From: Streptosporangiaceae bacterium
GTDB taxonomy: Bacteria > Actinomycetota > Actinomycetes > Streptosporangiales > Streptosporangiaceae
DNA: 35,129 bases
Reading direction: 5' to 3'
Assembly: GCA_019246795.1 (NCBI GenBank)
Contig: JAFAPY010000244.1
Location: 1-35,129, forward strand
The notes under the pieces were generated by a model. It was not told the origin of the DNA, searched no databases, and was given only the letters and a program-made list of their open reading frames with translations. The position numbers were made by a program, and so were the translations under genes. The first letter of the stretch is position 1. Each line of letters opens with the position of its first letter. Positions 3,558-25,023 of this stretch are shown here, piece after piece.

Positions 3558-4260
3558 GTTTGGGAATACCTCCGGCCGACTCGTCAGGATCACAGGCGGG
3601 CAGCGCGGGCGGTTGCCCGGATTGGCCCCGGGCTGTCCGGCTTCGGCTGCGGGAAACAGCCGCGGTTGTGACGACTATCCCCCAGCGCCGGACGTTAGAC
3701 ATTCCGCGGTATGACCATGAAATGCTCTAACGCCGACGATGGCTTCCGTTTTACCGTGCCGATTCCTCTCCGGCCGGGCGACACGCCGAAAGAACCGTGC
3801 CAGCGGCCGGAACCAGCTGAGGCTGGAGCGGGGGCCCGGATGGTCCAGTTCCGGGGTCAGCGCCTTCATCGAGCGTGCCGGCGTCCCCGCCCGATCAGCG
3901 CGTAGGATTTGTGCTTCGCGAAGGAAAAGGCGCCGAATATGGCCGCTTTTTCTACGTGAGGCACTAATCTTACGTGATCTTGCAGGGCTATATCGCTGTT
4001 TTGTCCGAATTGCTCCTTCTGTGCCGGGAGCACAGCGGCGGACGAGGGCGGTCCTCGTTTTCAGGCGTGGGCGGGCAGCATCCGCGCCGAGCGGGGCCTT
4101 CTCGCGCGCCCGGGCGGCACCGTGGGCGATACGCGGCGCCCTGGGCGATACGGAGGGCCTCGGGTCAGCGCTCCGCTGGCAGCCGGTACGTGTCGCGGCC
4201 GCGCGCCCGGGAAAACCTACATTGATATCGTCGGTTCAGCAGGAAGACGCCGGGCGGCTG
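3558..4260. other. About 700-bp intergenic region upstream of the trypco2 cassette
   Basis: No convincing gene. Reading frames here are rich in Arg/Ala/Pro and lack good start sites. The part from 3900 to 4010 is clearly less GC-rich than its surroundings and holds two TACGTGA repeats (3953, 3971; 18-bp spacing). Further on, TGGGCGATACG occurs at 4123 and 4142 (19-bp spacing). These probably form the promoter zone of the divergent secreted-protein gene and of the cassette. Confidence 0.55.
4123..4152. promoter_or_regulatory. Paired 11-bp direct repeat upstream of the trypco2 operon
   Basis: TGGGCGATACG occurs exactly twice, at 4123-4133 and 4142-4152, nineteen bases apart and about 110 bp before the first cassette start. 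Spacing close to two helical turns is compatible with a protein-binding direct repeat. No binding protein is known from the sequence. Confidence 0.35.
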
Positions 4261-13053: not shown

Positions 13054-13370
13054 GTTCCCGACAGGCCTCTCCGCCGCCGCATGGACGCGGAGCCGCAGGA
13101 GGTGAGCCGACCTCTATCGGCGTGTCGCTGGAGATGAAGCAGTATTTTCGCTAGTATTTTTGATACAAGATCGATCGTCAGGACGGGCGGTGGTGCATGG
13201 CCAAGGACCCGGCCCCGGACCCGCGGCGCGGCGAGGACCCCGCGCCGGGGGGCTTGGCGCCGGGCGGGGGGACGCCGGACTGGCTGGAGCCGCGAGCTGC
13301 ATGTCGTGAACACGCACCACCGCCCGTTCGGATGAAAGGCTCTTTTCCGAACGAGCGGTGGCGCAGGCGG
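13054..13370. other. Intergenic region between SnoaL-like and MMPL genes
   Basis: No gene is supported. The stretch at 13138-13175 is locally AT-rich. Near 13205-13275 there are G-rich runs. The end contains a hairpin (13325-13353) placed just after the MMPL stop. Confidence 0.6.
13325..13353. terminator. Hairpin after the MMPL gene
   Basis: Perfect 8-bp stem CGTTCGGA (13325-13332) and TCCGAACG (13346-13353) with a 13-base loop. It lies 18 bp beyond the minus-strand stop at 13371 and downstream of the convergent SnoaL-like gene, so it may serve both. Confidence 0.5.
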
Positions 13371-18218: not shown

Positions 18219-18242
18219 GGGCATCACATCTGAGGGCGTCAC
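18213..18242. repeat. 15-bp tandem duplication
   Basis: ATCTGAGGGCATCAC (18213-18227) is immediately followed by ATCTGAGGGCGTCAC (18228-18242), one mismatch. It abuts the hairpin starting at 18243 and includes the stop of the short coding-like fragment. Confidence 0.85.
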
Positions 18243-18274
18243 GATGGCGGCCGGGCCAAGGCCCGGCCGCCATC
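18243..18274. terminator. Very strong hairpin between convergent genes
   Basis: Perfect 15-base inverted arms GATGGCGGCCGGGCC (18243-18257) and GGCCCGGCCGCCATC (18260-18274) separated by AA. It lies between the plus-strand membrane gene (stop 18028) and the minus-strand gene (stop 18316). It should act as a bidirectional transcription stop. Confidence 0.85.
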
Positions 18275-18315
18275 GACCGCCCGCGGACCGGCTGGGTTCG
18301 GTCCGCTGCCGTGGA

Positions 18316-23246: not shown

Positions 23247-23462
23247 TCAGCGCCGGTCGAATCCGGCGCACTCGGTCACGGGCAGCCGCGGGTAGCGGGG
23301 CAGGCGGATATCCCAGGCGGCACGCGTACAGCGCAGGTATGCCGTGCCCCGGCTGGTCTCGTTGAGTTTCGCGTGGCGGCAGGCCAGGCACAGCCCGGGT
23401 TCGGCCCCGAGTTTCAGCCAGGCAGGGTCGGACGACCGGTCCGGCGGCGGTCCCTCAGGCAT
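23247..23462 (-). CDS. Small four-cysteine protein of the alkylation-repair operon
   Basis: 71 residues. Its ATG at 23462 overlaps the stop of the upstream oxygenase gene by 8 bp. Four cysteines, C25-x2-C28 (LCLACRHAKL), C45 (LRCTRAAW) and C65 (TECAGF), could form a zinc site. RHAKLNETSRGTAYLRCTRAAWDIRLPRYPRLPV is strongly conserved-looking. I have seen this pattern in uncharacterised actinobacterial proteins. Tight coupling to the PF09859 oxygenase suggests a partner in repair of alkylated DNA, but no direct evidence of activity exists. Confidence 0.75.
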   Translation of the reverse strand: MPEGPPPDRSSDPAWLKLGAEPGLCLACRHAKLNETSRGTAYLRCTRAAWDIRLPRYPRLPVTECAGFDRR

Positions 23463-24180
23463 CGTGGAAGACCAGGCCGAGGGCGTGACGGCGGCCGGAC
23501 CGCACGATGCTGACGCCGTGGCGGACCGGGCTTGCGGACCAGCCGCGAGCCGTCCGCACCGGGCGGTCGCGGGTGGTGAAGATCAGGCCGTGGCCCTGAT
23601 CCAGCGCGGTGGCGGTGCCGCGGGACTGCGCGCGCGGCCGCTGCTCGACGAGCAGGAACTCGCCGCCGGTGTAATCGGTGCCGTACCGGTCCAGGCCGAT
23701 CACGACCTGCAGCGGGAAGACCAGGTCGCCGAACAGGTCCCGGTGCAGGGCATTCCAGTCCCCCGCCCCGTAGCGGAGCAGGATCTGCGCGCTCTTGGAC
23801 TGCCCGCCCCGGTGGCACATCTGCAGCCATTCGCCGAGGGTGTCCGGCCACGGGGCCGGCCGGCCGAGGCGCCCGGCCCAGTCGCGGGCGATCTGCAGCA
23901 GATGCGGGTAGAACGCCTCGCGCAGCGCGCGGACGGGTTCGGGCAAGTCGTGGGTGAAGTACCGGTACCGGCCCGAGCCGAAACGGTGCCGGGCCATGTC
24001 GATGCTCGCGCGGAACCGCTCCGGCTGGTCGTCCAGGGCGGCCAGATCGTGGCACTCGGCCGGGGTGAGCAGCCGCGGAGTACGGGCGCAGCCCACGGCG
24101 TCCAGCTCGGCGGCCAGCGCCCGCCAGTCGGCGCGGGTCAGGGTCTCGGCGGCCTGGGCCGCCGGGGAAACGGTGATCAT
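23455..24180 (-). CDS. PF09859-type 2OG-Fe(II) oxygenase (oxidative demethylation of damaged DNA)
   Basis: 241 residues from the ATG at 24180, with GAAGG upstream. The family core is complete: LLTPAECHDLAALDDQPERFRASIDMARHRFGSGRYRYF, then the iron ligands H146 and D148 (LHRDLFG), the distal H221 (VRHGVS) and the 2-oxoglutarate arginine (GRRHALGLVFHDA). This matches the family annotated as oxygenases acting on alkylation-damaged DNA. The reaction would use 2-oxoglutarate, oxygen and Fe(II) to remove methyl groups. It follows ogt by 17 bp and overlaps the small four-cysteine gene, a likely single transcript for alkylation repair. Confidence 0.88.
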   Translation of the reverse strand: MITVSPAAQAAETLTRADWRALAAELDAVGCARTPRLLTPAECHDLAALDDQPERFRASIDMARHRFGSGRYRYFTHDLPEPVRALREAFYPHLLQIARDWAGRLGRPAPWPDTLGEWLQMCHRGGQSKSAQILLRYGAGDWNALHRDLFGDLVFPLQVVIGLDRYGTDYTGGEFLLVEQRPRAQSRGTATALDQGHGLIFTTRDRPVRTARGWSASPVRHGVSIVRSGRRHALGLVFHDA

Positions 24181-24197: not shown

Positions 24198-24695
24198 TCA
24201 GCCGGGCAGCAGGGCGCCCTCGTGCGCGAGCAGCTGCTGCTTGCGCAGCACTCCGGCGGCGTAGCCGCGCATGGTCCCGTCCGCGCCGACGACGCGGTGG
24301 CACGGGCGGACGATCAGCAGCGGGTTCGCGCCGACCGCGGCGGCGACGGCCTGGATGCGGTCCGGCGGCTCGCCGAGCTGCGCGGCAAGCCGGCCGTAGC
24401 TGGTGGTCGTGCCGTACGGGATGGTATCCAGGGCCTGCCAGACCCGGCGCTGGAACGCAGTGCCGTCGGGGGCAAGCTCCAGGTCGAAGACGGTCAGCTC
24501 GCCGGCGAAGTAGGCGGCGAGCTGACGGATCGCCTCGGCGAACGCTGCCGGGTCGTGATTCCAGCCGGGCTGAGGCGTCGGCGCGCCCGGCTGGCCGGGC
24601 ATCGACACCGACCGCAGCCCAAGGCCGCCGCCCGCCTGCTCGCCCGCCAGCAGCAGTTCGCCGACGGGGCTGTCCATCGTCGCGTAGACGGTCAT
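24198..24695 (-). CDS. ogt: Methylated-DNA-protein cysteine methyltransferase
   Basis: 165 residues from the ATG at 24695, with AAGGAAG upstream. N-terminal ribonuclease-H-like domain (MTVYATMDSPVGELLLAGEQ) and C-terminal helix-turn-helix domain with the active site PCHRV (C132), preceded by FQRRVWQALDTIPYGTTTSYGRLAAQLG and followed by GADGTMRGYAAGVLRKQQLLAHEG. It removes methyl groups from O6-methylguanine to its own cysteine, once per molecule. There is no Ada N-terminal domain, so it is Ogt-type. It is the first gene of the repair operon and follows a long palindrome that could control it. Confidence 0.95.
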   Translation of the reverse strand: MTVYATMDSPVGELLLAGEQAGGGLGLRSVSMPGQPGAPTPQPGWNHDPAAFAEAIRQLAAYFAGELTVFDLELAPDGTAFQRRVWQALDTIPYGTTTSYGRLAAQLGEPPDRIQAVAAAVGANPLLIVRPCHRVVGADGTMRGYAAGVLRKQQLLAHEGALLPG

Positions 24696-24711
24696 GTTTT
24701 CGCTTCCTTGA

Positions 24712-24747
24712 CTAGACAGGTATTTTCCTTGATACCGGCCAGTCTAG
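24712..24747. promoter_or_regulatory. Long imperfect palindrome upstream of ogt
   Basis: On the plus strand CTAGACAGGTAT (24712-24723) is followed by TTTCCTTG and ATACCGGCCAGTCTAG (24732-24747). Arms match as CTAGAC + GGTAT, with unequal inner spacers. It begins 17 bp before the ogt start codon on the opposite strand, i.e. in its promoter or leader. It may be an operator for the repair operon. Confidence 0.55.
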
Positions 24748-24813
24748 GAAGCGCCGGTGCCATCAGCTGGCGGGTTTCGGACATGCCGTTCCCGGCACGC
24801 CGGCACCAGGGGA

Positions 24814-25023
24814 TCAGTCGGCGGTCGCCAGGATTACCTCCGATGCCTTGATGACCGCGATGACCTCCGTGCCCTCGGCGAGGCCGAGCTCGCGGACCGC
24901 CTCGACGGTGATCGAGGCCACCAGCCGGGTGCCGTTGGCGTCGAGTTCCACGTTGGCGATGGCCTCCCCGGCGTTGATGCTGGTGACACGGGCCGGGATC
25001 TGGTTGCGCGCGCTCAGCCGCAT
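24814..25023 (-). CDS. Molbindin (single Mop/TOBE domain)
   Basis: 69 residues from the ATG at 25023, with GGAGGAG before it. The whole protein is one Mop domain: MRLSARNQIPARVTSINAGEAIANVELDANGTRLVASITVEAVRELGLAEGTEVIAVIKASEVILATAD is the standard pattern, with the conserved SARNQIPARV opening and VxVIKASEVILA closing. Such stand-alone domains assemble into hexamers that store or buffer molybdate or tungstate in the cytoplasm. No molybdate transporter or molybdoenzyme is adjacent, so it acts alone here. Confidence 0.92.
   Translation of the reverse strand: MRLSARNQIPARVTSINAGEAIANVELDANGTRLVASITVEAVRELGLAEGTEVIAVIKASEVILATAD

Follow-up and report, generated by a model that had tools for sequence, protein, structure and literature searches.

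The region upstream of ogt in the window, the whole 35,129-nt stretch of Streptosporangiaceae DNA analyzed here, is very probably the Ada-activated promoter of an ogt-Oxygenase-NA operon, at which Ada would act through a box at 24767-24783 on the minus strand. Sequences, conservation, spacing, genomic specificity, and protein domains form the basis of this reading. Ada probably activates the operon because the box is shared with ada, is conserved, keeps its spacing, and is specific in its exact form. The first gene, ogt (24198-24695, minus strand), encodes a 165-aa O6-methylguanine-DNA methyltransferase (PF01035, 2.4e-30; PF02870, 1.8e-8). The Oxygenase-NA gene (PF09859, 3e-77; 23455-24180, minus strand) lies 17 nt downstream of it. 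Based on this short gap, the two genes probably form one operon and would be co-transcribed. The initial annotation had described the region as the control region of an alkylation-repair operon, which very probably holds, with a conserved box preceding the ogt and PF09859 genes. It had also placed the controlling protein elsewhere, as no Ada is encoded in the window, and the presumed regulator is indeed an Ada protein on contig C267. The Ada metal-binding domain has one match in the assembly (92% complete), located on this contig. The protein carries Ada_Zn_binding, HTH_18, AlkA_N, and HhH-GPD domains (PF02805, 4.6e-29; PF12833, 4e-16; PF06029, 6.1e-38 for the open reading frame), so that the genome possesses a regulator with both an Ada zinc domain and an AraC helix-turn-helix, as in Ada-type regulons. 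A second ogt is located after the C267 ada gene.

The proposed Ada operator, TGTCCGAAACCCGCCAG (24767-24783, minus strand), is predicted to cover about -49 to -33 and adjoins the -35 region. The -10 hexamer TAGACT (24741-24746, minus strand) lies 20 nt downstream of the box. From its position, transcription is predicted to start at 24734 (minus strand, within a few bases). The ogt Shine-Dalgarno sequence reads AAGGAAG (24703-24709, minus strand), 7 nt before the ATG. Genome-wide, 24767-24783 is the sole match of TGTCCGANNNCCGCCAG without mismatches. The exact degenerate box, TGTCCGAWWYCCGCYRG, has two copies in the 4.28 Mb assembly, one before ogt and one before ada. The regulator gene and the repair operon thereby share a site, another feature of an Ada-type regulon. 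In the one other genome of the genus that was compared (74% complete), exactly two exact boxes are also present, before ogt-oxygenase and before ada. A looser definition was rejected as a genome-wide predictor, as TGTCCGANNNCCGCCAG at up to 2 mismatches gave 145 matches genome-wide against 164 control matches, with no excess.

The box is a conserved element upstream of ogt, Oxygenase-NA, and ada genes. We compared by eye the ogt upstream regions of seven actinomycete loci (L033-L039), where L033 is the same place as L002; L004-L007 were left out of the box analysis as ogt promoters. A block of approximately TGTCCGA-NNN-CCGCC(A/G)G precedes ogt in L033, in Streptomyces (L035-L038), and in Frankia (L039), with one base different in each of L036 and L039. 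A -10-like hexamer follows the block after 20 nt in L033 and L035-L039. In L034 (Streptomyces), ogt is directly behind an AlkA-like frame and the exact box is found about 1.58 kb upstream of ogt. L003 has a similar arrangement, with ogt behind an AlkA-like frame and a 1-mismatch box about 1.5 kb upstream, before an Ada gene.

Conservation before ada was assessed in 60 genomes, 49 of which gave a total of 62 Ada-domain matches. The 49 strongest matches (E below 1e-26), from this genome and its relatives, were retained as the ada set. Thirteen were left out, twelve for being weaker and one (G020) because its start falls on a contig end. Each region comprised as much as 400 nt of upstream sequence and the first domain bases, two being shorter at contig ends. 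Within 2 mismatches, the box occurs in 34 of the 49 upstream regions, compared to 0.2 of 49 in shuffles and 3 of 49 on the reverse strand; the remaining 15 have no box at this threshold. The best TGTCCGANNNCCGCCAG match per region has 0 mismatches in 2 regions, one in 22, two in 10, three in 6, four in 8, and five in 1. At up to 3 mismatches the degenerate box is found in 44 of 49 regions, 43 of which have enough flank to be stacked. A NANNNT hexamer separated from the box by 20 or 21 nt was present in 40 of these 43 promoters and in 36 of 38 exact sites before ada from the class sample described below. Ada-type regulons typically keep the distance between activator site and -10 hexamer constant, and the 20-nt gap in the window fits this pattern.

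Exact boxes were then counted in two larger samples, which overlap in several genomes (G041 and G042 are also in the 49-ada set). In 80 genomes of the family, 25 exact boxes were found in 21 genomes, while the reversed control pattern gave none. The genes that follow are ada (17), an AlkA-like gene (1), ogt-Oxygenase-NA (2), ogt (1), or none of these (4), so that 21 of 25 boxes precede ada, alkA, ogt, or Oxygenase-NA. In 196 genomes of the class, 52 exact boxes were found in 47 genomes, with 2 control matches. We checked 49 of the 52, as the other three (two from the own genome, one from G015) were already covered in the family sample. These precede ada (38), ogt (1), Oxygenase-NA (1), or other genes (9), amounting to 40 of 49 before ada, ogt, or Oxygenase-NA. 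The nine others include three boxes before DUF1203-like genes, one before a dehydrogenase-like gene, and one cut by a contig end. Among 44 genomes that encode an Ada domain, 17 have the exact box, compared to 0 of 10 that do not (Fisher p 0.015). As the Ada-less genomes come mainly from other families, this comparison is not independent of ancestry. This result lends weak support to box presence following Ada presence.

The boxes before other genes raise the possibility that other AraC-type proteins might read the same site. Exact boxes stand in some cases before DUF1203-like or dehydrogenase-like genes, and several of them keep the spacing, as would be expected if an AraC-family protein distinct from Ada were the reader of the conserved box. 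We consider such a reader improbable, as most exact boxes stand before ada itself in both samples and none occurs in the ten genomes that lack the Ada domain. In L212, L216, and L242, the exact box and a -10-like hexamer 20-21 nt further on immediately precede DUF1203-type genes, identified by Pfam in L212 and by eye in L216 and L242. These genes are possible further members of the Ada regulon or targets of a related AraC protein. Short-chain dehydrogenase genes follow the exact box in L149 (identified by Pfam) and in L243 (by eye).

We infer Ada binding, activation by methylation, and induction from these features, which suggest the following mechanism. Upon alkylation, the C267 Ada protein (Zn-HTH_18-AlkA) would be methylated on a cysteine of its zinc domain. 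Methylated Ada would then bind the asymmetric 17-bp box at 24767-24783 by the -35 region and recruit RNA polymerase to the promoter with the -10 hexamer TAGACT. The box before ada would provide positive autoregulation. With the box before both ada and ogt, the levels of Ada-AlkA, the two Ogt copies, and the oxygenase would increase jointly in response to alkylation damage.

The initial annotation had placed the operator elsewhere, in an imperfect palindrome with CTAGAC and GGTAT half-sites near the ogt start. The palindrome itself was confirmed at 24712-24747, where the sequence reads CTAGAC-A-GGTAT-N8-ATACC-GGCCA-GTCTAG. It is imperfect, as the half-sites are 1 nt apart on the left and 5 nt apart on the right, and 16 bases separate it from the ogt ATG (first base 24695). 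The rarity of CTAG, on which the original proposal drew, was also borne out: the 35-kb window contains 16 copies, where base composition predicts 87 and a Markov estimate 26. This dyad is the core of a larger imperfect palindrome and potential hairpin (24701-24753, minus strand), with arms at 24701-24713 and 24741-24753 that are 13 nt each and 92% complementary. One arm holds the -10 box and the other the ogt Shine-Dalgarno sequence. TAGACT overlaps the right half-site GTCTAG (24742-24747), so this half-site is largely the -10 box. The palindrome is secondary, one arm being the -10 region and the other carrying the ribosome-binding site.

A 74-base query returned its self-match and one 14-base match (E 3.3), and the dyad is single-copy in the assembly at up to 3 mismatches, so the palindrome was rejected as a repeated genomic element. 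Folding of minus-strand positions 24690-24756 gave -28.2 kcal/mol (z -5.7), and none of 200 shuffles was as good. In a 67-base-window scan of the 35 kb on both strands, the palindrome was the 8th distinct place listed (frame 24686-24752, z -4.6), indicating that the hairpin is strong but not singular. Stronger hairpins are found in the window at 3906-3972, 13296-13362, and 18221-18287 (z -6.7 to -7.8 against shuffles).

As the operator of a dimeric regulator, the palindrome at 24712-24747 could serve a repressor that blocks the -10 box. Its near symmetry, its overlap with the -10 box, the folding z of -5.7, and the scarcity of CTAG in the window are all in keeping with such a role. Dimeric operators are recognized by a repeated or conserved dyad, and neither was found here. 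A search of the assembly for the dyad gave no second copy at up to 3 mismatches. By eye, the palindrome is not kept upstream of ogt orthologues, being absent from the ogt promoter of the one other genome of the genus and from the compared Streptomyces and Frankia regions. In the same-genus genome, ogt is preceded by TAGCCT and six bases before the ATG, and the left half of the palindrome is missing. Since the palindrome is missing from this promoter, it is probably not an operator; we rejected it in this role, which we regard as highly improbable, and the box just upstream (24767-24783) is the likelier operator.

Another role for the palindrome would be as RNA. A co-oriented TOBE-domain gene (24814-25023, minus strand; PF03459, 1.2e-17) ends 118 nt upstream of ogt and is a possible source of read-through RNA. 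In a read-through transcript, the hairpin might hide the ogt ribosome-binding site, while RNA from the Ada promoter would start inside the hairpin and leave the site mostly open. A promoter nested in such a hairpin could block translation of read-through RNA, and a similar arrangement exists in phage T4. The mean pairing probability of AAGGAAG, computed at 0.85 in the read-through RNA and 0.26 in RNA from the predicted start, is consistent with this role. However, one G of the motif is still paired at 0.75 in the short RNA, the window has other hairpins of comparable strength, and the hairpin was found in one genome only, with the same-genus gene seemingly leaderless. We therefore view a block on read-through translation as doubtful, albeit with some chance of being real. 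It is more likely that the palindrome is a mutational by-product without function, arising from template switching or from duplication of the -10 region in inverted orientation, and we lean toward this explanation. The inverted copy of the -10 region sits in a leader that the same-genus gene lacks, and the palindrome is single-copy in the assembly. Against it, the near-complete stem takes in the ribosome-binding site. For the ogt gene of the window, a leader of about 39 nt (24696-24734) that includes a Shine-Dalgarno sequence is predicted, whereas the same-genus ogt is apparently leaderless. Judged from these sequences, the mode of translation has apparently changed within one genus.

The proposed regulation resembles the E. 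coli Ada regulon (ada-alkB, alkA, aidB) in its regulator with an Ada zinc domain and AraC-type helix-turn-helix and in its alkylation-repair targets, as far as passages of PMC10957082 and PMC10779285 describe that system. Probable autoregulation and an activator site beside the core promoter are further likenesses, according to the same passages. In E. coli, Ada is methylated on a zinc-domain cysteine (passages of PMC10957082 and PMC10779285), and its box consists of an A-box, AAT, and a B-box, GCAA (passages of PMC10957082). Unlike this box, the region 24741-24800 contains neither AAT nor GCAA on either strand, and the regulator here is fused to AlkA, with ogt separate. In Caulobacter, MMS induces an operon that combines an ogt-like gene with a 2OG-Fe oxygenase gene, the latter being the most induced of all genes, as reported in passages of PMC10957082. 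The Cada2 response described there, with such an operon under a methylation-responsive activator, is similar to the proposal made here and provides a precedent for the ogt-Oxygenase-NA pair. PF09859 also matches the Caulobacter control genome, which does not imply identity with the induced oxygenase gene. Cada2 has no zinc domain and recognizes a GCAA-CGG pair with 3 bp in between (passages of PMC10957082). In contrast, the Ada protein of the present genome retains the zinc domain, and with GCAA absent from 24741-24800, the Cada2-type pair is absent as well. The M. tuberculosis ada operon, with its AdaA-AlkA fusion and separate ogt (passages of PMC5057432 and PMC7179400), is also similar, and alkA and ogt are the only genes there changed by MNNG, according to passages of PMC5057432. 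Unlike in M. tuberculosis as described there, a second ogt lies here with Oxygenase-NA in a separate operon that is preceded by a box of its own.

No description of such a box was found in titles, abstract openings, or passages of the literature searched; an earlier description is possible, as subscription papers were mostly outside this search. By term search, PMC4437013 contained none of the actinobacterial terms looked for and PMC7432924 (M. smegmatis) no mention of a promoter or motif, and the passages of PMC10779285 treat only the E. coli ada box. The literature searched contained nothing relevant on PF09859, Oxygenase-NA, or DUF2086. A broader proposal would be that actinomycete Ada proteins have their own DNA code (GTCCGA-N3-CCGCYRG, with the -10 box 20-21 bp further on), different from that of either E. 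coli or Caulobacter, and that their regulon takes in Oxygenase-NA and perhaps DUF1203. It would add that the ogt promoter is nested in a hairpin whose ribosome-binding site is open only in Ada-started RNA, giving a double lock against uninduced expression. Taken as a whole, we consider this proposal rather unlikely. The Ada box proposed here would in itself provide a genome-readable recognition site for the actinomycete alkylation response, and regulon members could be listed by sequence.

The results also suggest that the oxygenase family PF09859 belongs to the actinomycete alkylation response. In 100 genomes of the family, PF09859 gave 33 matches in 32 genomes. Among 30 Oxygenase-NA loci, ogt-Oxygenase-NA is preceded by an exact box in 2. 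In 6 others, a box carrying 1-2 mismatches lies 89-185 nt ahead of the oxygenase match, and the remaining 22 lack any box at up to 2 mismatches in the upstream 1.5 kb or less. The window and the 30 loci together (275,618 strand-bases) contain nine box matches within 2 mismatches, all at these promoters, compared to about one predicted from the density in shuffled sequence; the window site contributes two of the nine, through the window itself and through L189. An ogt-like match lies upstream in 19 of the 22 boxless loci. In 17 of them it shows 36-50% identity to the ogt of the window, and these loci are probably under other control. For L177 and L178, with ogt 59 and 55% identical to that of the window, the only box has 3 mismatches and lies 76 nt ahead of the ogt match. 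NANNNT at 20 nt is present in 12 of 16 ogt or oxygenase promoters, which test spacing only because they were chosen for having a box. L193, and perhaps L170, represents a second kind of Oxygenase-NA locus, with a more distant ogt-like gene upstream and no box; in the L193-type locus, an apparent sigma-factor gene (by eye) stands ahead of the ogt-like gene. Weak Ada metal-binding matches occur just downstream of Oxygenase-NA at G005:C38:2461-2604, G029:C123:18910-19062, and G017:C344:3827-3982, and these perhaps represent a small zinc-domain protein.
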